A model generated the notes under the pieces. It saw only the letters and a program-made list of their open reading frames with translations. It had not been told where the DNA came from and did not search any database. Below, one piece after another: positions 4,743-19,834 of a DNA stretch of 64,000 nt. The stretch spans positions 434,001 to 498,000 of the forward strand of contig NZ_OBEA01000002.1 in NCBI RefSeq assembly GCF_900215355.1, given 5' to 3'. The first letter of the stretch is position 1. The number at the start of each line of letters is the position of its first letter. A program made the translations under genes and the position numbers. This DNA comes from Pseudooceanicola antarcticus (GTDB lineage Bacteria; Pseudomonadota; Alphaproteobacteria; Rhodobacterales; Rhodobacteraceae).

Positions 4743-4753
4743 GGTCTGTCCTT

Positions 4754-5758
4754 TCAGGCCGAACGGCGGCCGACGAGGGCGAGGGCGCGGTTGATGGCTG
4801 CGGGGCCGGCCATGGCCAGCACCAGGGTGGCGCCAAGGGTGGTGACGGTCTTCACGGGTTCCTCGAGCAGCGGCCGTTTCGAGCAGGCAAGAGAGGCGCG
4901 CATGCGGTTCACTGCCTCGGCACCGTTGCCCGCACTGACGGCGCGGCGGGCCAGGTAGCGGTTCTGGTAGGCGCGGGCCACGGGCGTCTCGCGGGCGAAG
5001 AACTCGGGCGCCAGCGGGGTCAGCTTCTCGACCATGCGTTCCCAGAAGGCGAACTGGCGGGTGATCCCGGCCGAAAGCCCCCCTGGTGCCACGCGGTAGC
5101 GGGTCAGCAGGCCGCGCAGGCCCTCGATTTCCCAGTCGGTGGTCAGCATCATGCGCAGCCAGCATTCGATATCCTCGGACTGGCGGAAGCTCTCGTCGAA
5201 CCACCAGTCACGGGCGGTTTCCTGCGCCGGGCGGAAGGCGATGGCATCGAGCGCCGCGCGGCGGATCACCGGGGCCGAGCCGTTGCCGATCGGGTTGCGC
5301 TTGAAGACATGGGCGGCGGTGATCCCGGTCAGCCGGGGGCGCTGTGCGAGACCGGTGGCCTGGCTTTCGCTGTCGATCAGCTCGGAGCCCGAGAAGGAGA
5401 TGCCGACATTGGGCCTGGTCTCGAGGTGGCGCACATGGGCGGCCAGCTTCTCGGGGCGCCAGAGGTCGTCGGCATCGCAGAAGCCGATGTATTCCCCACG
5501 GGCGTGGTGAATGCCGGAGTTGCGTGCTCCGGCCAGGCCCCGGTTGGGCTGCTGGATCAGGCGCAGGCGACGGTCGCCGAAGCTGCGGGCGATGGCCGGC
5601 GTGCGGTCGCTGGAGCCATCGTCGATGACCAGCAGCTCGAAGTCCTGGAAGGTCTGCGCCAGCAGCGAGCCGAGCGTCTCGGCCAGGGTTTCGGCCGCGT
5701 TGTAGGCGGGCACCACGATCGAGACACGGGGGGCGGTCGAGGAGATGAGATGGGGCAT
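4754..5758 (-). CDS. GT2-family glycosyltransferase of the EPS cluster
   Basis: I chose the ATG at 5758, preceded by GGAG at suitable distance, over an in-frame TTG at 5782. The 334-residue product has a GT-A domain: VSIVVPAYNAAETL near residue 11, IDDGSSDRT, NRGLAGARNSG, and the metal-binding motif CDADDLW near residue 94. Its role is probably sugar transfer during EPS repeat-unit assembly. The C-terminal region (about residues 215-334) resembles the helical tail common in GT2 enzymes and lacks a clear membrane anchor. The 35-bp gap to the upstream gene contains a partial duplication of that gene's last codons. Confidence 0.9.
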   Translation of the reverse strand: MPHLISSTAPRVSIVVPAYNAAETLAETLGSLLAQTFQDFELLVIDDGSSDRTPAIARSFGDRRLRLIQQPNRGLAGARNSGIHHARGEYIGFCDADDLWRPEKLAAHVRHLETRPNVGISFSGSELIDSESQATGLAQRPRLTGITAAHVFKRNPIGNGSAPVIRRAALDAIAFRPAQETARDWWFDESFRQSEDIECWLRMMLTTDWEIEGLRGLLTRYRVAPGGLSAGITRQFAFWERMVEKLTPLAPEFFARETPVARAYQNRYLARRAVSAGNGAEAVNRMRASLACSKRPLLEEPVKTVTTLGATLVLAMAGPAAINRALALVGRRSA

Positions 5759-5773
5759 GTCAGGTCTCCGGTC

Positions 5774-5807
5774 AGTTTGCAAAGACGGGGGGCTTAGTTT
5801 GCAAAGA
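5774..5807. repeat. 12-bp direct repeat at the end of a glycosyltransferase gene
   Basis: AGTTTGCAAAGA occurs at 5774-5785 and again at 5796-5807. The second copy covers the last codons and stop of the neighbouring gene (5794-6708, minus strand), so the first looks like a small tandem duplication of that gene end. Confidence 0.6.
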
Positions 5808-6708
5808 GCGTTTTACGCAGGGCGGCGGGCAGGATGGGGGCCATCAGGGCTCCCCCCAGAGTGAGGGCGCCACGGCGCAGGTCGGAGAACCAGCCGCGCG
5901 GGCTGGCGCCCAGACCGCGCAGGGCCAGGCCCAGGGTCTGGCGGCGCGGGGCGCCGGTGCGCAGGGCACGGCGGGTCAGGTAGCGCAGGTGGATCGCCTC
6001 GTCGCGCGGCGAGGGGCGGTTGCCGTAGCGGGCGGCCGTGGTCAGCGCGGCGAGACGCCCCGCGGCCATGGCGGGCAGATCCGCCGAGAGGCCGGTGACC
6101 GAGGTGCGGTACATCACCTGGACCTCGTCGATCCCGGCAAGGCGGTGGCCTTCACCGACGAGGCGGATCAGGAACTCCAGATCCTCGTTGTGCACGATGC
6201 GCGCATCTAGCCCGCCGCGGGCGCGGAAGACATCGGCGCGCAGGGCCAGGTTCGACATGGTGCAGACCGGGTTCTCGCCCAGCAGGTCGCTGACGGTGAC
6301 GTCGCGCGACAGGATGCGGCTGCTGCTGCGGGTGCCCTCGGCGTCGAAGAAGGCCACGCGCGCATAGGTTGCGTCGATGGTCGGATCGGCAAAGCGCCTG
6401 GCCAGGCTCTCCAATTTGCCGGGCAGCCAGAGGTCATCGGCGTCGCAGAAGGCCAGGATCTCTCCACGGGCTTCGGACAGGGCGAGGTTGCGTGCCTCTG
6501 AGGGGCCCTTGCCGGAATTGCGCATCGGGCGGAAGCGGGGGTCCTGCTGGGCGAAGCGGCGGGCAATGTCGAGGCTGTCGTCCACCGAGCCATCGTCGAT
6601 GACCAGCGCTTCCCAATCGCCGAGGCTCTGCGCGCGCAGGCTGTCGAGGGTCGCGCCGAGGGTGGCGGCGGAATTGTAGCAGGGGATGACGATCGTGAAG
6701 CGGGGCAT
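5794..6708 (-). CDS. Second GT2-family glycosyltransferase of the EPS cluster
   Basis: The start is the ATG at 6708 (MPRFTIVIPCYNS), whose A is shared with the TGA of the flippase gene (TGATG), so translation is probably coupled. The 304-residue protein has a GT-A fold: TIVIPCYNSAATLGATL, IDDGSVDDS near residue 36, PSEARNLALSEARG, and FCDADDLWLPGKL near residue 92 with the metal-binding DxD. The C-terminal third, rich in Arg and Leu, probably contacts the membrane. It resembles the neighbouring GT2 gene and may be an old paralogue. It probably adds one sugar of the EPS repeat unit. Confidence 0.9.
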   Translation of the reverse strand: MPRFTIVIPCYNSAATLGATLDSLRAQSLGDWEALVIDDGSVDDSLDIARRFAQQDPRFRPMRNSGKGPSEARNLALSEARGEILAFCDADDLWLPGKLESLARRFADPTIDATYARVAFFDAEGTRSSSRILSRDVTVSDLLGENPVCTMSNLALRADVFRARGGLDARIVHNEDLEFLIRLVGEGHRLAGIDEVQVMYRTSVTGLSADLPAMAAGRLAALTTAARYGNRPSPRDEAIHLRYLTRRALRTGAPRRQTLGLALRGLGASPRGWFSDLRRGALTLGGALMAPILPAALRKTLFAN

Positions 6709-7949
6709 CAGGCAAGCTCCATCCGGCGAGAGGTCACGAGGGCGGGGCCGATGGCGGGCAGGGCGGCTCCGATCTGGGTCACCAGGGCGACCACGAGGTA
6801 GCCCATGGCAATGGCGGTGAGGCCGTAGGGGGCCAGGACGATGGTGTTGGCGATCAGGGCGGCGGTCATGGCGAGGGTGGCCAGGAACTCGACCTGCGGC
6901 TTGTCGTGGGCGCGCAGCCACTGGGCGGCGGCGGACCAGATGACGCCGGGGATGGCGGCGAGGCAGAGGATCGAGACCACGTCCTCGATGCCCGACCAGC
7001 CGTCTCCGAAGAGCACCGGCACGTAGTAGGGCGCGGCCAGGGCCTGCAGCATCACCGCCGGGGCGATGATCGAGACCGACAGGATCAGCGAGCGGCGCAG
7101 CGCGGCGGCGCGGTCAGGTGCGGTGACCAGGTGTGGGAAGAGCACCGTGGCGAAGGCCTGGCTGAACGAGGTGGCGAGACCGAGACCGGCGTTGAAGGCC
7201 ATGAAGTAGAGGCCCAGCATCTCGGTGCCCAGAAGCGCGCCGATGACCAGCTTGTCGGCCTGCAGGCGCAGCGCCTTGACCACCTCGACCCCCAGCACGG
7301 CCCAGCCATAGGCCAGGAAGGGGCGCAGCGGCGCTGCCGTGGCAGAGCGGTCGGGGCGCCAGGGGCGCAGGCGGCGCATGGCGACAAGCCAGACCGGCGC
7401 CGCCATCAGGCGCGGCAGGACCAGCGCGATGGGACCGGGGAAGATCAGCGCCAGCAGGGCAGAGGCGACATTGGCGGCGACGACCTGGCCCCCGGCGATG
7501 GCGGCGGTCTGCTTCATCTTGCCTTCGCGCATGGCCAGGGCGCATTGCACGAGGCCTGCGGGCATGAAGAGGTATTCTCCGGCCAGCACCGCGATCAGGG
7601 CAAAGAGCATCACGTCGCCGGTCATCGCCCAGATGGCGCCGCCGGCGGCCACCTGCAGGGCGAAGAGACCCAGGCACCAGGCCCAGAAGATGCGATGCGC
7701 GGTGCGGGTGGTGGCGGCCAGGTCCTCGTCGCGGGCGGCGATGACGCGCTGGCCGACGCCGTTCTCGGTCAGCGACTTGACGATATCCGAGGCGGCCATG
7801 GCGGCGGCGGCCAGGCCGATGGCACCGGCATCCATGGTCCGGGCCACCGCGATGACGACCAGCAGGCGCGATCCCTTGGCCGCAGCCTCGGAGAGGCTGT
7901 AGGCAAGAAGATGCGCAGCGAAGCTGCCGGGGCGGAGGAAGCGGATCAT
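6708..7949 (-). CDS. Wzx-type polysaccharide flippase (MOP superfamily)
   Basis: The start is ATG 7949 (MIRFLRPGSFAAH), preceded by AGGA; longer in-frame reading upstream runs through the promoter region. The 413-residue protein is hydrophobic throughout, with about 12 membrane segments and the opening pattern of the Polysacc_synt family (LSEAAAKGSRLLVVIAVART). It should flip lipid-linked EPS repeat units across the inner membrane. It is first gene of the minus-strand operon flippase-GT2-GT2-GT4, transcribed away from the export lipoprotein gene. The 218-bp divergent region holds regulatory box A. Confidence 0.88.
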   Translation of the reverse strand: MIRFLRPGSFAAHLLAYSLSEAAAKGSRLLVVIAVARTMDAGAIGLAAAAMAASDIVKSLTENGVGQRVIAARDEDLAATTRTAHRIFWAWCLGLFALQVAAGGAIWAMTGDVMLFALIAVLAGEYLFMPAGLVQCALAMREGKMKQTAAIAGGQVVAANVASALLALIFPGPIALVLPRLMAAPVWLVAMRRLRPWRPDRSATAAPLRPFLAYGWAVLGVEVVKALRLQADKLVIGALLGTEMLGLYFMAFNAGLGLATSFSQAFATVLFPHLVTAPDRAAALRRSLILSVSIIAPAVMLQALAAPYYVPVLFGDGWSGIEDVVSILCLAAIPGVIWSAAAQWLRAHDKPQVEFLATLAMTAALIANTIVLAPYGLTAIAMGYLVVALVTQIGAALPAIGPALVTSRRMELA

Positions 7950-8054
7950 CGAGAAAGTCCTGGTGAATATGCGGTGATGCCCCCTGATAAGGGCTCTTTG
8001 GCCCTTGCGTCTTTCGCGCCCTAGGAGAGTGCAGGGGGGCAACAGGCAAAGAGA

Positions 8055-8072
8055 CCTATCCATTCGGATGGG
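8055..8072. promoter_or_regulatory. EPS box A: CCTATCC-N4-GGATGGG dyad
   Basis: The 7-4-7 inverted repeat has one mismatch in the right arm. It lies in the divergent region, 106 bp from the flippase start (7949) and 95 bp from the export-lipoprotein start (8168). Toward the lipoprotein gene, CTGACC (8076-8081) and TTGAAT (8099-8104) are 17 bp apart and could be a weak -35/-10 pair just downstream. The same dyad recurs at three other EPS promoters, which is why I call it an operator. Confidence 0.65.
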
Positions 8073-8167
8073 CGGCTGACCCTGAGTAAGCTGGACGCTT
8101 GAATCCCGCCCGGTATAGGGTGACTGCAAAGCCCGAGATCAAAGCCCAAAGCTATTCGGACCAGACA

Positions 8168-9406
8168 GTGACCCGCATCCGCTCTTTCCTGCCCCTCCAA
8201 GGCGCCGCGACGCTGGCCCTCGCCCTGGCCGCCTGCAGCGCGCCGCCTGCGGCCCGCAACATAGAGCCGGTGGCCGAGGGCGCTGCCTTCCAGGCGCAGT
8301 ATCGCGCCTTCGAGGAGGCCTCGCGCGGCGAGACGGTGGTGCTGCGCGCTCCGGCGATGAATGCCGCGCGCTGCCTGCCGCCGGCGGGCGACCTGGGCGG
8401 TGTCGGGGGCAAGGGTGGCGCGGCCACTCCCGTGGCCTTGCAGGGCGAGCTGCTGAGCCGGGGCGACCTGGTCCAGGTGCAGCTGCCCCAGGACGAGACC
8501 TTCACCGGCGAATACGTGATCTCGCGCGATGGGACGCTGAAGCTGCCCTATCTGCCGCCGATCATGGCGCAGGGCCGCAGCGTCCAGCAGGTCTCGCGCG
8601 AGATCCGCGCGGCGCTGACCGATGGCGCCTTCTACGCCGCCGAGCCGCAGCTGTCGCTGCTGGTGATGGACCTGGCCCCGGTGCGCGTCGCCGTGCGCGG
8701 GGCCGTCTTCGAGGCCCATGCGCTGGATATCGGCGGTGTGCCCGGTGATGCGGTGGACAGCCGCCGCCAGGCCGCCCTTGGGGCCTCGACCGAGGGGCGC
8801 AACCTCTCGGTGGCGCTGCGCAGCGCGGGCGGGGTGCGCCCCGATGCGGATCTCTCGGCGGTGCGGCTGACCCGTGGCGGGGTGAACTACACCCTCGACC
8901 TGCGTGGCGTGATCGAGGGCCGTGCGGCGCCGGACGTGATGCTGGTCACCGGAGACGAGATCTTCGTGCCCTCGCGCGGCTGCTTCCAGGATGACCTGAT
9001 GCGCCCCAGCCCGATTTCTCCGCCGGGGATCTCTCTTTACCTGTCGAACCTGACCCAGCCGGCCAGCAACAACGCCAGCTCTGCCATCGGCCAGACCGTG
9101 CGCGAACTGCCCTACGGCGCGCGCTACATGCAGGCGGTGGTGAATGCCAATTGCGTCGGCGGGGCGCGGGCCTCGAGCGCGGCCCGCTCGGCGGCGCTCT
9201 TTACCCGCAACCCGATCAGCGGCGTCTCGGCGGTGATCGAACGCCCGGTGGAAAAGATGCGCCAGCGCGCCGACCGGGATGACTACGATCCCTACCTGCT
9301 GCCGGGTGACGCCATCGCCTGCTACGACAGCTCGGTGACCAACCTGACGGAGGTGGGCCGGGTGCTGGGTGTGCTGGGGGCCGTGGCGGTGCTGGGACGC
9401 GACTGA
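8168..9406 (+). CDS. Wza-like outer-membrane polysaccharide export lipoprotein (OPX family)
   Basis: I chose the GTG at 8168 because the product then begins with a lipoprotein signal (MTRIRSFLPLQGAATLALAL, lipobox LAAC). An in-frame TTG at 8099 would add 23 residues without a leader. The 412-residue protein has a poly-export domain (VQVQLPQDETFTGEYVISRD, about residues 95-190), SLBB-like segments (VALRSAGGVRPDADL) and a hydrophobic C-terminal helix (VGRVLGVLGAVAVLG), like the Wza segment that spans the outer membrane. It should form the EPS exit channel. It stands alone as a plus-strand gene, convergent with the kinase gene. Confidence 0.88.
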   Translation: MTRIRSFLPLQGAATLALALAACSAPPAARNIEPVAEGAAFQAQYRAFEEASRGETVVLRAPAMNAARCLPPAGDLGGVGGKGGAATPVALQGELLSRGDLVQVQLPQDETFTGEYVISRDGTLKLPYLPPIMAQGRSVQQVSREIRAALTDGAFYAAEPQLSLLVMDLAPVRVAVRGAVFEAHALDIGGVPGDAVDSRRQAALGASTEGRNLSVALRSAGGVRPDADLSAVRLTRGGVNYTLDLRGVIEGRAAPDVMLVTGDEIFVPSRGCFQDDLMRPSPISPPGISLYLSNLTQPASNNASSAIGQTVRELPYGARYMQAVVNANCVGGARASSAARSAALFTRNPISGVSAVIERPVEKMRQRADRDDYDPYLLPGDAIACYDSSVTNLTEVGRVLGVLGAVAVLGRD

Positions 9407-9525
9407 GGCAGCGGGCCTCGGCGCGCGCCTTGTCTTGCCGGACGCAGGACGCCCTCAAGATCCATGATCCGCCCCCGGCGGCTGCGCGCCGTCCCAGGTC
9501 GTCCGAGGTTTCTGACGGCCTTGGC

Positions 9526-12123
9526 TCAGGCGGCGGTCAGGCGCTTGTCGATGACCTTGAGCTGCTCGAGGCTGTCGCGCCACAGGGGCTCCAGCGCAGA
9601 GAGTTCCGCCTGCTCGACCTCCTGGTTGCGCTTCGTCTTGGTCTCGATCTCGGCGAGGGCCTGGCGCAGGGCGGTCAGGCCGAAGGTGCCGCAGGTGCCA
9701 GCGGTGGCATGGGCCAGGCGGGCGATCTCGGAGCGGTTGCCGGGGCCCGAGACGAGGGCGGCGATGCAGCCGTCGGTCTCGGCGATGAAGCGATCCAGCA
9801 GCTTGCGGCCGGTGGCGGCGCCGGTGCCGCTGAGCAGGGATTCGATCTGGCTGCGGTCGATCAGGGTGACCGGGCTGTGCGGCGCATCGGTCTGCGGATC
9901 GGGCGACGAGAGCCGCCCGTTGGCCACGTCGTCGAGGCAGCGGGCCAGCACGTTGCGGTCGATGGGCTTGGGCAGCACGTGGGACATGCCGACGGAGCGG
10001 AACCGCTCGACCTCTTCGGGCAGCGCATGGGCGGTCAGGGCGATGATCGGCACCTCGGCGGAGGCACCATTGCCCGAGCGGATGCGGCAGGCGGCTTCGG
10101 CGCCGTCCATGACCGGCATCGAGATATCCATCAGGATCACGTCGAAGCGCTGCGCCATGGCCCATTCCACGCCGGCCTGACCGTCGACGGCCTCGGTCAC
10201 CTGGTGGCCTTCGCTTTCCAGCATCTCGCGGGCAATGAAGCGGTTGATCTCGTTGTCCTCGACCAGCAGCACTTCCATCGGGGTGATGGCGTTCTGCGGA
10301 CGGTCGCCCGAGGTGTCGTCTTCGACGTCCAGCGCATTGGCCGGGGTCACGGGCAGGCGGACCCAGAACAGGCTGCCTTCGCCGGGTTCGCTCTCGGCAC
10401 CGACTTCACCATCCAGCAGCTCGACCAGGCGGCGGACGATGCCAAGGCCAAGGCCGGTGCCGCCAGCCTGGCGCGCATAGGAGGAATCCAGCGTCTCGAA
10501 ATCGTTGAAGATGCGCTGCAGGTCGCCTTCGGCGATGCCGATACCGCTGTCGATGACGCGGAATTCGATCTGGTTGTGCTCGGGGCCGAGCATCTCGACC
10601 TCGATCTCGATGCCGCCGCCGCGGGTGAACTTGGCGGCATTGCTGACCAGGTTGAGAAGGATCTGGCGGATCTTGCGGCTGTCGCCCAGCAGGCGGTCTT
10701 CCGAGGCGCCGATCCAGGACCAGTTCAGGTCGTTGCCATGGGTGCTGGCCAGCGTGGCGGTGGATTCGACCACCCCATCCATCATGCGCGAGATCGAGAA
10801 GGGGCGGGACTCGGTGGTCATCTTGCCCGCTTCGAACTTCGCCAGGTCCAGAACGTCGTTCACCAGGCCCAACAGGTGCTGGCCGGAGCCCTGCATCAGG
10901 TCCAGCAGCTCGCCCTGGGCCTCGTTCAGACCGTGGTCGCGCAGCAGCTGCATGGAGCCCAGCAGGCCGTTCAGCGGGGTGCGCATCTCGTGGCTCATCA
11001 CCGCGAGGAATTCCGACTTGGCCCGTTCGCCCGCAAGCGCGCGGTCGCGGGACTGGGTGATCATCTCTTCCTGCGCCTTGCGCAGCGAGATGTCGCGGAC
11101 GAAGAAGACGTAGAGATGCTTGTCGTCGGCGGCCTGGTCGAAAGAGATTTCCGCCGGGAAGCGGCGTCCGAAGCGATCGACGGCGATGATCTCGTGGGGG
11201 TGCAGCACCTGGTCGCCGCGCTGGCGCGAGCGGATCACGGTCTGCACCACGCTCTGCAGCTCGGCGGCCTGCTCGTCGCTGAGAAGGATCTCGCTGACAC
11301 GGCGCCCGATGGCCTCGTCGCGGCGATAGCCGAAGACGCGCTCGGCGGCGGAGTTGTAGTCGCGGATCATCCCCATGTCGTCGGTCACGACGATGGCGTC
11401 GATCGAGGTCTCGACGATGGTGTGCATCCGCTTGGCGCGGCCCTCTGCCTGCTCTGCATGTTCGCGGGCTTCGCGGGCCAGGCGGGTCAGCACCAGGGCG
11501 ATCAGCGACAGGCCGGCGATAAAGGCAAAGAGCACCGCCGCCACCATCGACAGCTTGCGGATCAGGCTGTCTTCGCGCTCGTCGCCGACGCGCACGAAGG
11601 TTTCGAGCGCGGCCAGCGAGAACTCACGCACCAGCGGGCTGGTTTCCTGCGCATCGGCGACCAGGGTGCCGATATCGGCGGCAAGCGCCTCGTCGTCGCT
11701 GTCGATCAGCGGCACCGAGCGCTGCAGGAAGTCCTCGACCGCGCGGCGCGGTGCCTCGAAGGCCTCGACACCGATCAGCGCCTGGAACGGATCGGCGTGG
11801 TCGATGGTATACATGCGGCTGTAGAAGACGTCGAAGCGGGTCCGGGTCTCGTCCAGCGCGGTCGAAAGCGCCTCGGGGGAGGTCGTCTCTCGAACCTCGT
11901 TCAGCGCCTTGTAGGCGGCGATGCGGAAGTGCAGGAAATCGACATCGGTCTGCGACAGGCTCCATTGCAGGCTGTCCGACTTCGACGCCGAGAGTTTCTC
12001 GATCTCGTTCAGAATCCCCCAGGCCATGCCTGCCATGAGAGCGACGCAGAGCCCTAACGTGGTAATGGCCGCTACTGGTTGTTGCCAGAAAGCGGGCCTG
12101 TAGGGTTTCTGTTCAAGGGTCAT
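9526..12123 (-). CDS. Membrane hybrid histidine kinase (sensor-PAS-HisKA-HATPase-REC-HPt)
   Basis: The 865-residue kinase has TM1 at about 18-38, a periplasmic region at about 40-188, TM2 at about 191-213, a PAS domain at about 232-345, a HisKA helix with phospho-His378 (SHEMRTPLNG), an ATPase domain (N box NLVSNAAKF, G2 GGTGLGLGI), a receiver with Asp666 (ILMDISMP), and a C-terminal HPt with His805 (RLAHATAGTCGTFG). This is a full His-Asp-His arrangement that needs an outside response regulator. The LuxR-type regulator at 14486 is the obvious candidate. The gene starts 29 bp after the PruR-like periplasmic gene, so the two are almost surely co-transcribed; the periplasmic protein is the likely ligand-sensing partner. 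The EPS setting suggests control of EPS synthesis. Confidence 0.92.
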   Translation of the reverse strand: MTLEQKPYRPAFWQQPVAAITTLGLCVALMAGMAWGILNEIEKLSASKSDSLQWSLSQTDVDFLHFRIAAYKALNEVRETTSPEALSTALDETRTRFDVFYSRMYTIDHADPFQALIGVEAFEAPRRAVEDFLQRSVPLIDSDDEALAADIGTLVADAQETSPLVREFSLAALETFVRVGDEREDSLIRKLSMVAAVLFAFIAGLSLIALVLTRLAREAREHAEQAEGRAKRMHTIVETSIDAIVVTDDMGMIRDYNSAAERVFGYRRDEAIGRRVSEILLSDEQAAELQSVVQTVIRSRQRGDQVLHPHEIIAVDRFGRRFPAEISFDQAADDKHLYVFFVRDISLRKAQEEMITQSRDRALAGERAKSEFLAVMSHEMRTPLNGLLGSMQLLRDHGLNEAQGELLDLMQGSGQHLLGLVNDVLDLAKFEAGKMTTESRPFSISRMMDGVVESTATLASTHGNDLNWSWIGASEDRLLGDSRKIRQILLNLVSNAAKFTRGGGIEIEVEMLGPEHNQIEFRVIDSGIGIAEGDLQRIFNDFETLDSSYARQAGGTGLGLGIVRRLVELLDGEVGAESEPGEGSLFWVRLPVTPANALDVEDDTSGDRPQNAITPMEVLLVEDNEINRFIAREMLESEGHQVTEAVDGQAGVEWAMAQRFDVILMDISMPVMDGAEAACRIRSGNGASAEVPIIALTAHALPEEVERFRSVGMSHVLPKPIDRNVLARCLDDVANGRLSSPDPQTDAPHSPVTLIDRSQIESLLSGTGAATGRKLLDRFIAETDGCIAALVSGPGNRSEIARLAHATAGTCGTFGLTALRQALAEIETKTKRNQEVEQAELSALEPLWRDSLEQLKVIDKRLTAA

Positions 12124-12152
12124 CCGTTGTCCTTCTGCGGCTCTCCCGCCGG

Positions 12153-12641
12153 TCAGTCGATGACCTTCAGGCGGTCGAGCTGCCAGATGCTGCGCGAATA
12201 AACTACATCACTACGGTACGCAGCGCCCGAATCGAAGGGATAAATGACCCAGAGAGGCCCCTTTGCCCTTACGGACATCGGTTTGCCGTGGTTCTTGTAG
12301 GCGATGATCGGAAATTCCTCGTCCCAACCGTCGGCCGGAATCTGCACCGCGTAGTCGTTGATCGCGGTCGCATCGACCGCGCTGGCCTCGGGGGCGATAT
12401 CCGCGATCAGGCTGGCCAGCGGCACGCCGGTGAAGTCCTGCATGCCCTCGGTCCAGTTGGTCGTGGTCTCGACCTGGGTCGATGGCATGGCTTCGAGATC
12501 GGCAAGGGTGAACTCTGCCAGAACCTCGTCTTCCTCGTTCAGCACGGTCAGAAGCACCTTGTCGTCTGCCTGCACGGCGACGGTTCCGGCGAGAAGGGTC
12601 AGGGCCGCAAGGAGGGGGGTGATGCGAGAGCGGATGGTCAT
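12153..12641 (-). CDS. PruR-like periplasmic SUOX-fold protein, probable pterin-binding sensor subunit
   Basis: I chose the ATG at 12641 because it gives a clean Sec signal (MTIRSRITPLLAALTLLAG, cleavage near AVQA-DD); an ATG at 12677 would add 12 residues before it. The 162-residue product matches small proteins annotated as molybdopterin-dependent oxidoreductases: FTLADLEAMP, WTEGMQDFTGVPL, and the tail KGPLWVIYPFD then SIWQLDRLKV. It has no cysteine at all, so the molybdenum-ligating Cys of true sulfite oxidases is missing and it is unlikely to be an enzyme. In Agrobacterium the related PruR binds pterins and controls a partner signalling protein. Here the gene directly precedes a membrane kinase gene, so a ligand-binding partner role is inferred. 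Confidence 0.78.
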   Translation of the reverse strand: MTIRSRITPLLAALTLLAGTVAVQADDKVLLTVLNEEDEVLAEFTLADLEAMPSTQVETTTNWTEGMQDFTGVPLASLIADIAPEASAVDATAINDYAVQIPADGWDEEFPIIAYKNHGKPMSVRAKGPLWVIYPFDSGAAYRSDVVYSRSIWQLDRLKVID

Positions 12642-12715
12642 GGAGCGATTCCCTAATTTTTCGTTCAAGTCTCGCATGTTTCCGAGTATTTTTCTTGGCG
12701 CATTGGAAGACCCGA

Positions 12716-12733
12716 CCTATCCGAAAGGATAGG
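12716..12733. promoter_or_regulatory. EPS box B: perfect CCTATCC-N4-GGATAGG dyad
   Basis: A perfect 7-4-7 inverted repeat (spacer GAAA) lies 74 bp upstream of the PruR-like gene start, so it is placed to control the sensor/kinase operon. It is the best copy of the motif shared by four EPS intergenic regions. A smaller palindrome CACGT-TT-ACGTG lies beside it at 12739-12750. Confidence 0.75.
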
Positions 12734-12780
12734 TTGTTCACGTTTACGTGGGGAGGAGGCTACCTATTTCGACCCCTGGG

Positions 12781-14172
12781 TCAATAGGCTCCCCGTCCTC
12801 CGATGACGGCCCGTGCCGTCAGCGCCAGCAGGAGGGTATCCAGCAGCAGCGAGCGGGAACGGATGTAGGCGAGATCCATGTCGATCATCTTGTCGAAGCC
12901 GATTTCAGCGCGTCCCGAGACCTGCCAGAGGCCGGTCAGGCCGGGTTTCACCTCGAGGCGGCCCATGGCGCGCTCGGGGTAGGCCGCCACCTCTTCGGGC
13001 AGGGCGGGGCGGGGGCCGACGATCGACATGTCGCCCTTCAGCACGTTCAGGATCTGGGCCAGCTCGTCGATCGAGAGGCGGCGCAGGATGCGGCCCACCC
13101 GCGTGATGCGGGGGTCGTTGCGGGACTTGAAGCAGATGCCCTCTCGGTCCGAGGTCGCAAGCAGCGCGGCGCGGCGGGCCTCGGCGTCGGGATACATCGA
13201 GCGGAACTTGAGCATGGTGAAAGGGGTGCCGTCCTTGCCGACGCGGGTCTGACGGAAGAGCACCGGGCCGCCGCTTTCCAGCCGGATCGCCAGGGCGGTG
13301 AGCAGCAGGATCGGTGCCAGAATAATGAGCGCCGCGGCAGAGACCGTGACATCAAAGACACGGCGCGCGGTGTCTCCGGCGGGGCGTTGCGCCCGTGCAT
13401 CGAGGTAGGCGCGGCCGAGGAAGGCGAAATTGCCGATCAGGTAGCGGCGGGCCATGCGGCGGGGCTCCATGGCCAGGCGCCAGGCCCATTCGGCGCGCGC
13501 CTTGCGCACGATTGCCGGGGCGCGCTTGACGCGACCGGCCAGGAAATCGAGGAGCGCGCCGACGCCCATGGTGATGCGCGGCGACAGCCGGGCCTCGTGC
13601 TTGGCCAGCCAGTTGTCCTGGAAGGGCACGCCAAGGGCAACCAGCAGGATATCGGCCCCCGATGCGTTCACTGCAGCGACCGCGGCGTTCTCGTCGGTCA
13701 TGCCGTCGTAGCCGTCACGGGTGCCGGCGATCTTCAGTCCGGGGATGTCGCGGCCCAGGCGCTCGGCGGCCTCGGCGGCAACACCGGGCTGGCCGCCCAG
13801 CAGGAAGACGGACAGGCCGCGCCGTGCCGCTGCCTGCAGCAGGCGGGGGGTGAAATCGGTGCCGTTGAGGTTCTCGGTCAGGCTCTGGCCGCTCATCCGG
13901 GCGGCCATCTCGACGCCGATCCCGTCGGGCAGGATCATGCCGGCGGTGACCAGTGCATCGCGGTAGGTCGGATTGCGCGCGGCGATATTGCCGCAATGGG
14001 CATTGAGGAAGGCAAGCCGGGTGCGGCGACCGGGCTGAAGCAGGCGGGTGATCACCGCATCGGTGGTGGCGTCTACGATATCGAGACCGAACAGACGGAT
14101 GCGCGACAGGGCCTTGGGAGCCGGTGCGGGGCGGACATCGTGCAGTCGGGCGAGCTGGGCAGTGGCGTTCAT
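12781..14172 (-). CDS. Fusion of WecG/TagA/CpsF glycosyltransferase (GT26) with an initiating sugar-phosphate transferase
   Basis: I chose ATG 14172 (MNATAQLAR); ATG 14181 is an alternative. The 463-residue product has two enzymes. Residues about 20-245 are GT26: LNAHCGN, LPDGIGV with the conserved Asp, GVPFQDNWL, and EPRRMARRYLIG. Residues about 270-463 are a monotopic phosphoglycosyltransferase: a hydrophobic hairpin (AALIILAPILLLTALAI), SGGPVLFRQTRVGKDG, KFRSMYPDAE, the catalytic DE pair in LSIDELAQILNVLKGDMS, VGPRP and KPGLTGLWQVSGR. The second domain should load the first sugar phosphate onto undecaprenyl phosphate and the first should add the next sugar, so one chain could do steps one and two. 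It is transcribed away from the response regulator gene. Confidence 0.92.
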   Translation of the reverse strand: MNATAQLARLHDVRPAPAPKALSRIRLFGLDIVDATTDAVITRLLQPGRRTRLAFLNAHCGNIAARNPTYRDALVTAGMILPDGIGVEMAARMSGQSLTENLNGTDFTPRLLQAAARRGLSVFLLGGQPGVAAEAAERLGRDIPGLKIAGTRDGYDGMTDENAAVAAVNASGADILLVALGVPFQDNWLAKHEARLSPRITMGVGALLDFLAGRVKRAPAIVRKARAEWAWRLAMEPRRMARRYLIGNFAFLGRAYLDARAQRPAGDTARRVFDVTVSAAALIILAPILLLTALAIRLESGGPVLFRQTRVGKDGTPFTMLKFRSMYPDAEARRAALLATSDREGICFKSRNDPRITRVGRILRRLSIDELAQILNVLKGDMSIVGPRPALPEEVAAYPERAMGRLEVKPGLTGLWQVSGRAEIGFDKMIDMDLAYIRSRSLLLDTLLLALTARAVIGGRGAY

Positions 14173-14485
14173 GGTGAGCATCCGAAGTTGCGTTGAAGTT
14201 GCATTCAGATGGATGACGCTGCGGCATGAACTCCAGCGCGCGGCGGGTGAGGTTGCGGGGACATTAGCCGAGCACTGCGCCTGCACGGGGGGTCTGGACA
14301 CCCCAGGCGGGAATGACCCTTGATCCGGGGGAGTCAGGCAACTATCCCTAAGAATAGGATACCACTCCGAGGGGTCTCCCCGATTTGGTCACATTCTTGG
14401 TGTCGGGTTAACCAGTGGCTAACGTCTTGATTCGGAATGGCGGGATTTACGATTGATTACGGCAACACCCAGTCAGGAAGCTTCG
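14173..14485. other. Divergent intergenic region of the fusion transferase and response regulator genes
   Basis: These 313 bp separate two divergent genes and contain EPS box C, plus a T-rich stretch around 14384-14400. I see no small gene or convincing -35/-10 pair in it. Confidence 0.6.
14341..14358. promoter_or_regulatory. EPS box C: ACTATCC-N4-GAATAGG dyad
   Basis: The 7-4-7 dyad has one mismatch in each arm relative to CCTATCC-N4-GGATAGG. It lies 127 bp upstream of the response regulator start (14486) and 168 bp upstream of the divergent fusion gene start (14172). If functional it would allow autoregulation of the regulator. Confidence 0.55.
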
Positions 14486-15124
14486 GTGCGAAAGATGTCT
14501 CAGGGCGGTATGCGGGTCCTCATCGCGGATGATCACGATCTGCTCAGGGATACCCTGCAAGCATTTCTCAACGCCGAGGGCGGTTTCGAGACCGTGACCG
14601 TGGCCTCTTATGACGAGGCCGTGGAGCGGGTCGAGAACGACGAGAGCTATGATCTCGTGCTTCTGGACTACTCCATGCCCGGCATGTCCGGCATCGAGGG
14701 GTTGCAACGTATGATGGAACAGACCGGCCACAGCCGCGTCGCCATCATCTCTGGCACCGCCAGCCGCGAGATCGCCGAAGAGGCCCTGGCCATGGGCGCC
14801 GCAGGCTTCCTGCCCAAGACGCTTTCCGCCAAGTCGCTGATCAACGCGGTCCGCTTCATGGCGATGGGAGAGCAATATGCGCCGCTAGAGTTCATGCGCG
14901 CGCCCACCGAGGAAGAGAGCAACCCGCTGGCCGACAAGCTGTCTCATCGCGAGCTGCAGGTGCTTGAGGGCCTGACCCAGGGCAAATCCAACAAGGAGAT
15001 TGCCCGCGACCTCGATATCCGCGAGCCGACGGTGAAGCTGCACGTGAAGACGCTCTATCGCAAGATCGGCGCGTCGAACCGCACCCAGGCGGCCATCATC
15101 GCCAAGGAGGCGGGGCTCTTCTAG
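14486..15124 (+). CDS. LuxR/NarL-family response regulator of the EPS locus
   Basis: I chose GTG 14486 because AGGAAG lies 5 bp upstream; the frame can be extended to a TTG at 14453 without a ribosome site, and ATG 14495 is also possible. The 212-residue protein has a receiver domain (LIADDHDLL acidic pocket, phospho-acceptor Asp61 in LVLLDYSMPG, Lys in FLPKTLS) and a C-terminal LuxR HTH (LSHRELQVLEGLTQGKSNKEIA then VKLHVKTLYRKIG). It lies alone between box C and box D. As the only DNA-binding response regulator in the EPS locus it is the best candidate partner of the HPt-bearing kinase and the best candidate to bind the four boxes. Confidence 0.93.
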   Translation: MRKMSQGGMRVLIADDHDLLRDTLQAFLNAEGGFETVTVASYDEAVERVENDESYDLVLLDYSMPGMSGIEGLQRMMEQTGHSRVAIISGTASREIAEEALAMGAAGFLPKTLSAKSLINAVRFMAMGEQYAPLEFMRAPTEEESNPLADKLSHRELQVLEGLTQGKSNKEIARDLDIREPTVKLHVKTLYRKIGASNRTQAAIIAKEAGLF

Positions 15125-15154
15125 GCCCTCCCGCCAGCCCCGTTGCCGGGAAGC

Positions 15155-15172
15155 CCTATCCTTGGGGATAGT
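15155..15172. promoter_or_regulatory. EPS box D: CCTATCC-N4-GGATAGT dyad
   Basis: The 7-4-7 dyad (spacer TTGG) has one mismatch at its outer end. It lies 90 bp upstream of the chain-length gene start (15263) and 30 bp after the response regulator stop, so it is placed to control the chain-length/polymerase operon. Confidence 0.7.
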
Positions 15173-15262
15173 TAACATGGGCTTTCGCGCGTCCCCGCAA
15201 CCCTTGGGCGTCCCCCTGCAATCCAGTGATGTCAGGTAGAACCTGGGGCAAGGAGATCAGCC

Positions 15263-16792
15263 ATGCCCCATGCCTCGAATGACGATCTGACGCCTCGCAC
15301 CAAAACTGTCCGGCCTGCGCCCGAGGGTGGGCGCCGGCTTGTGCCGCGTCTCATTCGCAAGCCGCTGGGGGCGCTTACCGCCATGCGCCTGCTGCGTGGC
15401 GGGCGTATTGCCGATGCCGGGCGCTTGCCGCGCTACCTGGCGCTGCTGGCCCTGGGCGGCGTCGCCATCTGGGCGCCGATCCTGAGCTATCTCGACCGCG
15501 CGCCGTTGCGCTACACCTCCAGCATGTCGCTGATCCTGCCCGGCTCCGGTGCCTCGGCCTCGGTCAACCTGGCGCAGATCGGCCAGGCCTCCTCGTCCTC
15601 CAATTCGCCCTTCAATGGCGGTTCGGTCAGCCCGACCGAGACCTACAAGCGCCTGCTGGCTGCCGAGCGCATCGTCGCCGGGGCGGCGGGGGCGCTGGAC
15701 ATGCCGTTGCGCGATTTCGGACAGCCGCGGGTCGAGCTGGTCGACCAGACCGGGCTGATCCATATCGCGGTGACCGGCAATTCGCCCGAGGATGCCCGCG
15801 CCCGAGGTACCGCCCTGCTGGACAACTTCTTCCAGGAGATCGACCGTCTGCGCTCGGACGAGATCGCCACCCGAGAGCTGCGCGCCGGCTCCGCGATCGA
15901 GGAATACCGTGCCTCGGTCATGGCCACCCGCGACGAGATCACCCGCCTGCAGACCGAAACCGGCCTGCTGTCGCCGGACCAGTACAACACCCTGGTGGCG
16001 GAAACCGACACCCTGGCACAGCGTGTGCAGGATCTTGAGGCCAAGCTGCAGGAGAGCTCTCGCGCGGTGGATGCGCTGGCGGGGTCCCTGGGCACCAGCC
16101 CGCGTCTTGCGGCGGCAGCCCTGCGGCTGCATGCGGATACCGAGTTTGCCGCGCTGAACGACGAGGTGTCCCAGCGCGCAACCGAGTTGTCGCAGGCCCG
16201 TGCCCGCTATGGCGCCTCGCATCCCACCTTGCAGAACGCGGCGGCGGGGCATCGTTCGGCCCATGCCGAGGCTCTTGGCCGTGCCATTCGCCTGACTGGC
16301 CTCTCCGAGGCCGAGATCGAGGCGCTGGACTTCTCGCACGTCGGCTCTCGCACCAGCCTGCTGAGCGAGCTGGTCACCCTCGACAGCGCGCGCGCCGGGC
16401 TCGAGGCCGAATACCGGAGCGTCGCCAGCCAGCTGGCCGTGGCCGAAGCGCGCCGGACCTCGCTGATCGAGCCGGCCGCGCGGCTGGAGGATCTGCAGCG
16501 TGATTTCTCTGTGGCCGAGGCGGTCTTTGCCTCTGCCATGGCGCGCAGCCAGACCGGCAAGGCCGATCTCTATGCCTCCTACCCGCTGGTGCAGGTGCTG
16601 GAAGATCCCTCGCTGCCCTTCGAGCCCTCCTCGCCGCGCCGCATGCTGGCGCTGGCCGCCGGTGTCGCCGCCTCGCTGATGTTCTTCATCGGCCTGACCC
16701 TTGCCTGGATGCGCCGCCCGATGATCGACCGGCTGATCGACAGCGGCAAGAACCGCTATGGCGAGCCCGGCCTGATCGTGGCGGCGGAATGA
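15263..16792 (+). CDS. Polysaccharide co-polymerase / chain-length determinant (Wzz/GumC-like, no kinase domain)
   Basis: The 509-residue protein starts at ATG 15263 with AAGGAG upstream. It has a basic cytoplasmic N-terminus, TM1 at about 57-75 (LALLALGGVAIWAPIL), a long periplasmic part with a coiled-coil (Q/E/A-rich helices, about 220-430), and TM2 near the C-terminus (MLALAAGVAASLMFFIGLTL), followed by a short cytoplasmic tail. This is the polysaccharide co-polymerase layout, but the usual fused tyrosine kinase is absent and no separate kinase is seen. A Ser/Asn-rich stretch near residue 113 (SSSSNSPFNGG) sits in the first periplasmic domain. It probably sets EPS chain length with the polymerase gene, which it overlaps by 4 bp. 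Confidence 0.85.
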   Translation: MPHASNDDLTPRTKTVRPAPEGGRRLVPRLIRKPLGALTAMRLLRGGRIADAGRLPRYLALLALGGVAIWAPILSYLDRAPLRYTSSMSLILPGSGASASVNLAQIGQASSSSNSPFNGGSVSPTETYKRLLAAERIVAGAAGALDMPLRDFGQPRVELVDQTGLIHIAVTGNSPEDARARGTALLDNFFQEIDRLRSDEIATRELRAGSAIEEYRASVMATRDEITRLQTETGLLSPDQYNTLVAETDTLAQRVQDLEAKLQESSRAVDALAGSLGTSPRLAAAALRLHADTEFAALNDEVSQRATELSQARARYGASHPTLQNAAAGHRSAHAEALGRAIRLTGLSEAEIEALDFSHVGSRTSLLSELVTLDSARAGLEAEYRSVASQLAVAEARRTSLIEPAARLEDLQRDFSVAEAVFASAMARSQTGKADLYASYPLVQVLEDPSLPFEPSSPRRMLALAAGVAASLMFFIGLTLAWMRRPMIDRLIDSGKNRYGEPGLIVAAE

Positions 16793-18135
16793 CCGAGAGG
16801 CTGGCCCCGGCCAACCCCGCCGAGGGGCTGATCTGGTTCACCCTGCGCTGGACCTGGCCCTTCTATTTCATCGGCGCGCTCTATGTCGTCGGCCCCGTGC
16901 TGGCCTGGTTGCTGGCGGGGCTGGCGGCCTTCACGCTCTACTTCGGCCCGGTGATGCGGGACGGCCTGAAACCCCGAGGCCCGATCCCCCCGGTGATCTG
17001 GGGCTGGATCTTCGGCATGGCGGTGATGCTGGTCGTGCTCTGGATCGGCCATCTCAACTGGCACCTTGGCACCGGCCGCACCATCAAGAGCTCTATCGGC
17101 TGGGCCAAGGGCTGGGCGTTGCTGGCGCTCTTTCCGCTGGCCGGCGCGGTGCTGCCGATCCGCCGCGAGATCCTGATCCGCGCGCAATGCATCGTCGGAC
17201 TCTGGACGCTCTGCCTGCTGCCGATCATGTTGGCCGCGCCCTACGTGGGCCTGCCCGAGCGCATCTTTACCTCTCCCTTCCGGGCCATCGGCGGACCGGG
17301 GCCCGAGTACTTCAGCGTCTACTTCTTCACCTGGGATCCGGCCAGCTGGACCCCGCGCTGGCAGTTCTTCGCCCCCTGGGCTCCCTTCGCGGCGCTTCTG
17401 GGCGTCCTGCAGGTCTGTTTCGCGCTGGAAGAGAGCGACCGCAAATGGCGCAGCATCGGCATCGCGGCCGGCATGGCGATGATCTTTCTGTCGAAGTCGC
17501 GCATGGGGCTCGTGGGCGTGGTGGCCTGCACCCTCGGCCCGCGCCTGCTGCCGCTGGTGCTGAAGGGCTGGGCCTGGATGATGCTGGCGGCGCTGACCGC
17601 CTCGCTTGCGGTCTTCGGCACCTGGGCGCTGTCGACGCTGAAGGACGGCGTGGCCGCCTTCAAGGGCGCGCGCGCCGACAGTACCCGCGTCCGCGCCACC
17701 CTGCAGCGCATCGCCGGAGAGCGCTGGCAGAACGAGGCCTTCTGGTTCGGTCACGGTACCGTCCAGCCCGGCCCGCACCTGGTGGAATACATGCCGATCG
17801 GCTCTCATCACACCTGGTGGGGGCTGTTGTTCGTGAAGGGCCTGGTTGGGATGCTGGCGCTGCTGCTGCCGCTGGCCTGGCATACGCTGATCGTCATGGT
17901 CGATGCGGCGCGCCATCCGCGCGGCCGGCTGCCACTGGCGGTGATCATGACCATCGTGCTGCTGTCCTTCGGCGAGAACCTCGAGATCGAGGCCTACATG
18001 ATCTGGCCCGGCCTGGTGATCCTGGGGACGCATGCCCAGGACGTGGCCCAGGATGCACGGCGCCGCCTTGCGGCGGGGGCGGAGGTCACTCCGGAGGCAG
18101 GACCCGGCCCTGCCCAAGCAGATCCGCGGGATTGA
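16789..18135 (+). CDS. Wzy/O-antigen-ligase-type EPS polymerase
   Basis: The start ATG overlaps the previous stop (ATGA), so the two are translationally coupled. The 448-residue protein has about 10-12 membrane segments and a large periplasmic loop followed by the O-antigen ligase region (WFGHGTV near residue 322 and GSHHTWWGLLFVKGLVG near residue 340, with the conserved His residues). These enzymes join repeat units to a growing chain or to an acceptor; given the Wzx, co-polymerase and export genes nearby, the polymerase role is more likely. The last 50 bp overlap, antisense, the end of the FAD dehydrogenase gene. Confidence 0.82.
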   Translation: MTERLAPANPAEGLIWFTLRWTWPFYFIGALYVVGPVLAWLLAGLAAFTLYFGPVMRDGLKPRGPIPPVIWGWIFGMAVMLVVLWIGHLNWHLGTGRTIKSSIGWAKGWALLALFPLAGAVLPIRREILIRAQCIVGLWTLCLLPIMLAAPYVGLPERIFTSPFRAIGGPGPEYFSVYFFTWDPASWTPRWQFFAPWAPFAALLGVLQVCFALEESDRKWRSIGIAAGMAMIFLSKSRMGLVGVVACTLGPRLLPLVLKGWAWMMLAALTASLAVFGTWALSTLKDGVAAFKGARADSTRVRATLQRIAGERWQNEAFWFGHGTVQPGPHLVEYMPIGSHHTWWGLLFVKGLVGMLALLLPLAWHTLIVMVDAARHPRGRLPLAVIMTIVLLSFGENLEIEAYMIWPGLVILGTHAQDVAQDARRRLAAGAEVTPEAGPGPAQADPRD

Positions 18136-19456
18136 GCGCGGCGCGCAGGCGCCGCAGCAGCGCGATCTCGGTCTCGGTGCGCACCAAGGGCAGGTAGCGC
18201 ACCTTGTCCTGGCCCAGCCCGTGCTCGGCGGTGATCGAGCCACCCATGCTGGCGGCCAGGGCATTGAGCCCGCCCGTGACCTCGGAGCCCTTCCCGGTAT
18301 TCACGATGTAATGCAGGTTGCCGTCGCCGATGTGACCAAAGACGAAGGGCTGCGCCTCGGGGTCGATCCGGGCCAGCAGGCTGCGGGCGGCGTCGAGGAA
18401 CTCGGGCAGGGTGCGGGCGGGCAGGGACAGGTCGTGCGCCACCAGCTCTCCCAGGCTGAAGGTATATGCCACGCAGGCTTCGCGCAGCGCCCAGAGCTTG
18501 TCGTATTCGCTTGCCGACTGGGACACCACGATATCCGAACAGAGCCCGGCCTCGTAGGCCTCGATCAGCGCCGCCTCGAAGGCCTCTTCGCGCAGGACCT
18601 CGGCCATGCCCTGGACCTCGAGCAGCACGTAGAGCCCGGCGCCGGGGGGCAGGGGCGGGGTGCCGATGCGGGCGGCGGCGCCCTCGTAGACCTCTGGCCA
18701 GATGCCCTCGCAGGCTGAGAGCAGCGGGCCGAGCCTCGCCCGCATGTGTGCCAGCAGCTCCTGCGCGCGGGCCGCATCGGGCACGGCGCAGAGCGCGTTG
18801 ATCTGCAGGCTGGGGGCGGGGTGCAGGCGGAGCAGGGCGCGGGTGATCACCCCATGGGTGCCCTCGGATCCGATGAAGAGCTGCCGCAGGTCGGGGCCTG
18901 CGTTGTCCTTTTCGAGCCCCCGCATGGCATCGATTACCGAGCCATCGGGCAGCACCGCCTCGAGCCCCGCCACCTGGGCGCGCATCATGCCGTAGCGCAG
19001 CACACGGATGCCGCCCGCATTGGTGGCGATCATGCCGCCGATGGTGGCCGAGGCTCGGGCGCCCAGGTCGACCCCGAAGATCATCTGCTGCGCCTGGGCG
19101 ACCTGCTGCACCGATTGCAGCGTCGCACCCGCCTGGACCTCGACCTGCGCCGCGATCCGGTCCACCGGGGCCACGTTGGTCATCCGTTCGAGCGAGAGCA
19201 CCACCTCGCCCGCGCGGGGACGGGCGCCGCCGGAGAGGCCGGTCAGCCCGCCCTGCACGATGATCGGCCTGCGGACCGCGAAACAGGCCGCAAGGGCGGC
19301 CGAGACGCCGGCCGTATTCACCGGGCGCAGGACGAGCCTTGGCTGGGCTCCGCCACGCCGCGTGGCATCCGTGGAAAACCTCGCGGTGTCCCTGGGAGCC
19401 GTCAGCGGCGCCAGGTCATGACCCGCCAGCTGTGCCAGCAGCAGCGCTTCAGGCAT
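18086..19456 (-). CDS. FAD-binding 2-hydroxyacid dehydrogenase (GlcD / D-lactate / D-2-hydroxyglutarate dehydrogenase family)
   Basis: The 456-residue protein has an N-terminal PP-loop FAD domain (IIVQGGLTGLSGGARP near residue 70, GVDLGARASATIGGMIATN near residue 129) and a FAD-oxidase C-terminal domain with the diagnostic GHIGDGNLH near residue 370 and ITAEHGLGQDK near residue 405. These enzymes oxidise D-2-hydroxy acids and pass electrons to quinone, cytochrome c or ETF. The substrate cannot be settled; no glcE or glcF subunits follow, so single-subunit D-lactate or D-2-hydroxyglutarate dehydrogenase is more likely than glycolate oxidase. The 3' end overlaps the EPS polymerase gene by 50 bp on the opposite strand. 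Confidence 0.88.
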   Translation of the reverse strand: MPEALLLAQLAGHDLAPLTAPRDTARFSTDATRRGGAQPRLVLRPVNTAGVSAALAACFAVRRPIIVQGGLTGLSGGARPRAGEVVLSLERMTNVAPVDRIAAQVEVQAGATLQSVQQVAQAQQMIFGVDLGARASATIGGMIATNAGGIRVLRYGMMRAQVAGLEAVLPDGSVIDAMRGLEKDNAGPDLRQLFIGSEGTHGVITRALLRLHPAPSLQINALCAVPDAARAQELLAHMRARLGPLLSACEGIWPEVYEGAAARIGTPPLPPGAGLYVLLEVQGMAEVLREEAFEAALIEAYEAGLCSDIVVSQSASEYDKLWALREACVAYTFSLGELVAHDLSLPARTLPEFLDAARSLLARIDPEAQPFVFGHIGDGNLHYIVNTGKGSEVTGGLNALAASMGGSITAEHGLGQDKVRYLPLVRTETEIALLRRLRAALNPADLLGQGRVLPPE

Positions 19457-19834
19457 CGTTTCTGGAACCGGTGCAGATCATGATCAGTACCTACCTTCAT
19501 TCCGGTTTTGCCAAATGTGCCTCGGAGCAAAGCCGGGCGGCGGACTCGGCCATACCCTTGGGGATCGCGGCGGATAAGAGAAGCCCTCCTTTGGACGTAC
19601 ACACAGGGATTACCCCCGTGCGCTGAGTCACCCGCGCGGGTGCCCTCACCGGCATGGCAAGGGTGGCCAATTGCGGTGCGGCGCGGGGCATCGGGCCGAG
19701 GTGCCGCCCTCGCGCAGCTGCCCCCGGCCTTGTGCCGTTAGGCGCGCGGGCTTCGCCGGGCCGGCCATGGCATGGCTCTGGTATGAAGGCCGAAAAGGCG
19801 GTAGTTTTTAGGACTTGCAGGCAAGGGAGGCGTC
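19457..19834. other. Divergent intergenic region of the FAD dehydrogenase and XRE-cupin genes
   Basis: These 378 bp probably carry both promoters. An imperfect dyad, CATACCC-TTGG-GGATCGC (19551-19568), resembles the EPS box but has four mismatches and is not called as a site. I see no small gene. Confidence 0.5.

Follow-up and report, generated by a model that had tools for sequence, protein, structure and literature searches.

Genes and dyad repeats of the exopolysaccharide locus

The window analysed here, a stretch of 64,000 nucleotides from the genome of Pseudooceanicola antarcticus, carries an exopolysaccharide (EPS) locus together with a signalling cassette of three proteins and four copies of an inverted repeat (Table 1). 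The biosynthetic genes resemble a Wzx/Wzy-type set, in which the priming transferase, flippase and export protein were assigned through Pfam, the Wzz-like protein scored below its family cut-off, and the polymerase-like protein had no Pfam or NCBIfam match. The fusion protein that contains the priming transferase reached 284.3 bits against TIGR03025, for which the cut-off is 295.55.

Table 1. Coordinates of the genes and dyads of the EPS locus within the window.
Feature	Position	Strand	Remarks
Glycosyltransferase family 2	4754..5782	-	Pfam
Glycosyltransferase family 2	5794..6921	-	Pfam
Flippase, Wzx-like	6708..8129	-	Likely start 7949; PF13440
Box 1	8055..8072		CCTATCC-ATTC-GGATGGG, 1 mismatch; between divergent wzx-like and wza-like genes
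Polysaccharide export protein, Wza-like	8099..9406	+	Likely start GTG 8168; PF02563, SLBB
Hybrid histidine kinase, DTB type	9526..12123	-	PAS, HisKA, HATPase, REC, Hpt; N-terminal region without Pfam match
PruR homologue, putative periplasmic pterin-binding protein	12153..12677	-	Likely start 12641; PDB and PF00174
Box 2	12716..12733		Perfect; 5' of the pruR-kinase operon
WecG/TagA and polyprenyl glycosylphosphotransferase (PGT) fusion	12781..14301	-	Likely start 14172; PF03808, PF02397
Box 3	14341..14358		ACTATCC-CTAA-GAATAGG, 2 mismatches; between divergent wecG/PGT and luxR
REC-GerE (LuxR-type) response regulator, proposed binder	14453..15124	+	PF00072 1.2e-24, PF00196 4.3e-21
Box 4	15155..15172		CCTATCC-TTGG-GGATAGT, 1 mismatch; 5' of the wzz-like gene
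Chain-length determinant, Wzz-like	15263..16792	+	TIGR03007 53.4 bits, far under cut-off; synteny
Polymerase-like protein	16789..18135	+	Wzy label assigned without family match; conserved in synteny

Judged by its sequence, the product of the 12153-12677 frame is a PruR homologue. It matched the PDB entries 7KOS (E = 2.7e-24), 7RKB (4e-23), 7KP2 (3.4e-21) and 7KOM (1.6e-19), and also PF00174, at 24.9 bits and barely over the cut-off of 24.0. The frame, of 174 amino acids (PruR proteins have about 170) with a SUOX-like domain, contains no cysteine and hence lacks the molybdenum-ligating one, and after the methionine at 12641 its N terminus looks signal-like by eye. Residues W75, N107 and Y109 are present in 63 of 64 PruR sequences and W165 in all 64. 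Based on the alignment from the 7KOS search and on reading by eye, Y109, N107 and W165 correspond to Y104, N102 and W160 in the consulted portion of a review, the Tyr and Trp being residues of the pterin site (PMC13259868). The pruR and kinase frames lie on one strand, 29 bp apart, and are predicted to form a two-gene operon. The kinase is TorS/BaeS-like, with TorS as its best NCBIfam match, at 382.9 bits and under the cut-off of 676.5. At the place of the periplasmic WX7E motif, the 67 kinases compared have W54 in 67/67 and, at the +8 position, E in 62 and D in 4 of 67; the window kinase has D62 there (WX7D). Pairs of PruR and such a kinase are named PruR-DTB in section 8 of the same review, the consulted part of which describes them as widespread (PMC13259868).

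The third protein, the LuxR-type regulator, has several start candidates (TTG 14453, GTG 14486, and ATG at codon 15 or 20). Its nearest PDB entry is NarL (1a04), and its GerE domain is the sole DNA-binding domain found by Pfam among the three cassette proteins. One orthologue (G002:C1:7176-7802) reads with a single internal TAG. In the first 50 PruR loci of the family, the next frame had a HisKA motif in 44 and a GGDEF motif in none, and a LuxR match was present in 35, simply divergent from pruR in 31 of these. The remaining 15 had no LuxR match in the stretch examined, which spanned 12.5 kb in four of them, including the locus of a second PruR copy of this genome.

A sequence-only reading of this stretch had reported the dyad CCTATCC-N4-GGATAGG at four promoters of the locus, and a pattern scan of the window returned the same coordinates and mismatch counts; the perfect copy (box 2) extends by 1 bp on each side into an 8-4-8 palindrome at 12715-12734. 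That reading was also right in stating that the window holds no equal match elsewhere: the sole other matches with up to three mismatches, at 13916 and 28773, have three each, and the six matches found at this threshold compare with 1.74 expected from shuffles. A scan of all 4.23 Mb of the genome gave 17 places with up to two mismatches, versus one for a reversed-pattern control, and four of the 17 fall within the 7-kb EPS stretch. With respect to likely starts, which were read by hand from the sequence and not taken from a prediction tool, all boxes are intergenic as had been proposed; however, the 6708-8129 frame includes box 1 when read at its full length. The proposed distance of about 75-170 bp to the start codons agrees with the approximately 74 to 168 bp measured to these likely starts: about 74 bp from box 2 to pruR (ATG 12641), 168 bp from box 3 to wecG/PGT (ATG 14172) and 127 bp to luxR if GTG 14486 is used, 90 bp from box 4 to wzz (ATG 15263), and 95 and 105 bp from box 1 to wza (GTG 8168) and wzx (ATG 7949).

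Conservation of the box and its linkage to the PruR-kinase cassette

Using the LuxR protein as query, we collected the loci of the best 80 of 523 relatives, amounting to 1,529,422 bases (1.53 Mb). These best 80 of 523 loci contain 57 perfect, 64 one-mismatch and 49 two-mismatch copies of the dyad with spacer 4. No perfect copy was found in them at spacers 0-3 or 5-10, and 60 permuted arms gave no perfect copy and a mean of 0.18 at up to one mismatch. Of a spacer-9 variant (four one-mismatch and 12 two-mismatch copies), the four one-mismatch copies were dismissed, as they overlap ordinary spacer-4 boxes. The four dyads are genuine: the counts from the window, the genome and the 80 loci, set against their controls, rule out a chance origin by a wide margin. 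From 170 boxes we derived the 20-bp consensus A-CCTATCC-GWWC-GGATAGG-T, the spacer of which tends toward the palindromic GWWC.

Two outcomes that had been named beforehand as counter-evidence did not appear: frequent occurrence of the dyad in unrelated intergenic regions was looked for and not found, and the boxes are conserved in related EPS loci. Across Rhodobacteraceae they hold their positions in syntenic EPS loci; relative to the LuxR start, these are approximately -6.2 or -7.0 kb, -1.75 or -2.6 kb, -0.1 to -0.2 kb, and +0.6 kb. The second of each pair of offsets goes with an additional nucleotidyltransferase gene, which was observed in L044 and L071 and is presumed in the other loci with these offsets; some loci of the same gene order lack the full set of four boxes at up to two mismatches.

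Perfect 7-bp stems are also what would be expected of RNA hairpins (terminators or attenuators), and two perfect copies do stand between convergent genes, in one context shared by G213 and G258 (L174:3056 and L177:3010). These genes, which we take to be a ubiG-like gene and its neighbour, probably enclose a terminator whose hairpin resembles the box. However, no stretch of at least four T residues follows the EPS-locus copies or the three other perfect copies of this genome, the spacer is palindromic in tendency with no perfect copies at the other tested lengths, positions 4500-20000 gave no Rfam match, and the boxes lie upstream of the putative -10 elements. The missing T tract, the spacer and the absent Rfam match rule out that the EPS copies act as terminators or other RNA elements, and as an account of the dyads in general, RNA hairpins are highly improbable. 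In all likelihood the dyad is a genuine operator.

Within the best 80 of 523 loci, the box followed the signalling cassette. Cassette genes were called by tblastn (60 bits for PruR, 300 bits for the kinase), and a box was counted anywhere in the locus. A box with up to one mismatch was present in 59 of the 68 loci with PruR and/or the kinase, namely in 40/42 with this EPS cluster, in 16/21 that have PruR and the kinase without this EPS cluster, and in 3/5 others. In all 16 box-bearing loci without the EPS cluster, a box stands before pruR. Because these 16 of 21 loci keep the box, it is tied to the cassette rather than to the EPS genes, and its use as a mark of EPS genes per se is ruled out. 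Six of the 68 cassette loci had no box at up to two mismatches, three of them showing three-mismatch sites at the expected places. Among the loci without PruR and the kinase, a box was found in one of 12, of which only five are full length and seven are under 20 kb.

Six of the 21 loci without this EPS cluster (L041, L060, L062, L068, L069 and L077) adjoin a non-homologous, synthase-type polysaccharide operon. In L068 (L068:10737-17526) this operon encodes REC-SpoIIE, STAS, HATPase, DUF3131, acyltransferase and GT2 synthase proteins according to Pfam, which was run on L068 only; the operons of the other five loci were assigned by homology to it. A one-mismatch box stands before the synthase-type operon, approximately 616 bp beyond the LuxR start, in L068, L069 and L077. 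The L068-type operon, which adjoins the PruR-kinase-LuxR cassette, has a partner-switching module of its own (SpoIIE phosphatase, STAS and RsbW-like ATPase).

The same linkage was seen among genomes. Within the genus, 13 of 22 genomes encode the regulator at 65% identity or more, and these average 4.4 boxes with up to one mismatch (minimum 2) versus 0.9 in the nine without such a regulator; two of these nine are just 66 and 77% complete. Perfect boxes occur in 10/13 genomes with the regulator versus 0/9 without it. In the family, a perfect box was found in 34 of 295 genomes, and PruR in 32 of these 34 versus 163 of 295 overall. At least 31 of the 49 perfect family sites are within 5 kb of a PruR match among the matches listed; 18 are away from any PruR match among the matches listed, one of them (G027, L178) in an EPS cluster and two being the copies between convergent genes in G213 and G258. 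Two further dyad observations came from these genomes. A degenerate box-like dyad occurs between two divergent genes, presumably carA-like and YqeY-like (for L162, judged solely from gene lengths), in genus members without a close regulator (L136:3047, L140:3025, L162:3043), and a single genome has identical one-mismatch boxes surrounded by genes of equal length (L128:3069, L129:3055), perhaps within a mobile element.

The range of the box extends past the EPS locus. This genome has three further perfect copies outside it: 5' of a VTT-domain gene followed by dsbB (L001:5893), between a gene that we take to be glnA and a gene for 335 amino acids without Pfam match (L002:5888), and 5' of a small ORF and a DUF1775-PCuAC copper gene (L003:6028). 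Sites at homologous places occur in five genus genomes for glnA and the 335-amino-acid gene, five for VTT-dsbB and three for the copper gene (L142, L144, L160, L169; L157, L167, L143, L146; L161, L165). Every genome that shares these sites has a regulator at least 83% identical, and the sites may be further members of the regulon.

Arms of the probable operator and the recognition helix of the LuxR-type regulator

A de novo palindrome search in the pruR-luxR gaps recovered CTATCC-N4-GGATAG in 3/7 loci whose LuxR recognition helix is of the EPT type (shuffle maximum 1), and TATAC-N4-GTATA in 4/21 loci of the EVT/EAT type (shuffle maximum 2). The same split between EPT and EVT/EAT was then predicted for 60 fresh loci, comprising 7 EPT, 36 EVT/EAT, 2 unreadable and 15 without LuxR in the stretch. 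Fresh EPT loci had TATCC in 4/7 (2 perfect) and TATAC in 1/7. In fresh EVT/EAT loci, TATAC with up to one mismatch was found in 16/36 (6 perfect), compared with a maximum of 5 for 14 other arms; TATCC was equally common (16/36, 4 perfect), so that fully separate operators for the two types were borne out in part only. The predicted split held in direction for EPT and by half for EVT/EAT. Over all sets, which include the discovery loci and 63 named loci, perfect TATCC arms were present in 47/79 EPT-type and 5/60 EVT/EAT-type loci, and perfect TATAC arms in 0/79 and 10/60; the loci and genomes compared are relatives, and p-values, which here ignore kinship, come out too small.

Since the operator arms vary with the recognition helix, LuxR is supported as the binder, and we infer that it is the protein most likely to occupy the dyad. 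Another DNA-binding protein, encoded elsewhere, might occupy the boxes instead, with luxR as merely one of its targets. The three copies that this genome carries at a distance from the cassette fit such a protein, as do the LuxR loci without PruR and the kinase, most of which have no box (11/12) despite a recognition helix that is nearly identical where alignable. On the other hand, box presence tracks the cassette across loci, genus and family, no other cassette protein has a DNA-binding domain in Pfam, and the arms shift with the recognition helix, all of which make a binder encoded elsewhere quite unlikely. The earlier proposal of a single regulon with a LuxR-type binder accordingly gains support from synteny, cassette loci without EPS genes, co-occurrence within the genus, and covariation of operator and helix-turn-helix, with the LuxR protein as the probable binder.

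A candidate pterin-responsive circuit

We propose that the neighbouring REC-LuxR regulator uses the dyad as its operator, that it is the output of the PruR/hybrid-kinase cassette and that it activates the four promoter sets, a reading to which we give a probability of about 0.8. The gene downstream of the perfect box is likely of the PruR type that is paired with a PruR-DTB kinase, and a pterin sensor of this kind would likely give the regulon its input. The PruR-type periplasmic protein would bind a pterin, a small redox molecule and the presumed signal, and contact the periplasmic domain of the kinase; the kinase would then pass phosphate, presumably via its own REC and Hpt domains, to the LuxR regulator. 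Phosphorylated LuxR dimers would bind the 20-bp palindrome, often with a third half-site approximately two helical turns away, and the four boxes would control the regulator itself, its sensor operon and the EPS operons.

The promoter layout suggests that the dyad lies upstream of the promoter and is activating, the counts for the -10 element being small. A third half-site, CTATCC with up to one mismatch, is present at +22 in 25/58 pruR-directed boxes and at +23 in 9/39 luxR-directed boxes, where a single box may count in both sets. For pruR and wza, TANNNT was most frequent at +61 to +64 (10 of 44 and 9 of 32 matches, respectively); for wzz, 14 of 25 matches fell at +77, +82 and +83, and luxR-directed boxes gave no TANNNT peak. 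The dyad centre would accordingly stand approximately 65 bp 5' of the putative transcription start for pruR and wza and 80-85 bp for wzz, most likely as a class-I-type activator site. LuxR could also bind the same boxes as a repressor of the EPS genes and its own cassette, relieved by phosphorylation or by pterin. This would suit the autoregulatory box, and the consulted portion of the review reports that the PruR-pterin branch of Agrobacterium reduces both polysaccharide and attachment (PMC13259868). Against repression, the boxes stand 5' of the putative -10, at about -65 to -85 with the third half-site near -50, an activator-like arrangement in which the -10 evidence is weak. We regard a repressor as a doubtful but appreciable possibility, and activation by LuxR as the preferred reading.

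Several known systems resemble the proposed circuit. NarL operators have a 7-2-7 spacing, and in TorT-TorS-TorR a periplasmic accessory protein feeds a hybrid kinase with an OmpR-type regulator as output. The regulator described here is like NarL/FixJ-type response regulators in its REC and GerE domains and its probable binding to an inverted repeat, and unlike NarL in the 7-4-7 operator with a GWWC centre. It shares with the Tor system a periplasmic protein that would feed a hybrid kinase, whose best NCBIfam match was indeed TorS, below cut-off; however, the SUOX-like PruR replaces TorT, and a LuxR-type regulator replaces the OmpR-type one.

The consulted text of the review describes PruR-DcpA of Agrobacterium tumefaciens as a periplasmic PruR in a two-gene operon with a membrane partner and a polysaccharide output (PMC13259868). 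The window shares these features, with a predicted operon and a predicted polysaccharide output, whereas its partner is a hybrid kinase and not a c-di-GMP enzyme, and the signal is proposed to reach a DNA-binding regulator that has an operator of its own. Closer still in composition is Ruegeria pomeroyi DSS-3, for which the consulted part of section 8 describes PruR and a kinase with a WX7E-type periplasmic motif, PAS, HisKA, HATPase and REC (PMC13259868). Unlike it, the kinase of the window reads WX7D at this motif and carries an Hpt domain at its C terminus, and unlike in that account, a regulator and a regulon are proposed here, with operator and targets.

The term 'response regulator' does not occur in the consulted text of this review, section 8 of which, as consulted, gives no regulon or target genes for PruR-DTB (PMC13259868). 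The literature searched gave neither a regulator nor an operator for PruR-DTB, and primary literature may mention the LuxR gene. The present analysis supplies candidates for these parts, namely the conserved neighbouring regulator, an operator of 20 bp and a set of target promoters. We lean towards the view that the PruR-DTB systems of Rhodobacteraceae are transcriptional phosphorelays, in which pterins would set polysaccharide through a dedicated LuxR and operator without c-di-GMP, and that the cassette became linked, in separate events, to two or more polysaccharide machineries that are unrelated to each other. In marine Rhodobacteraceae, pterin redox sensing may thus be linked to exopolysaccharide.
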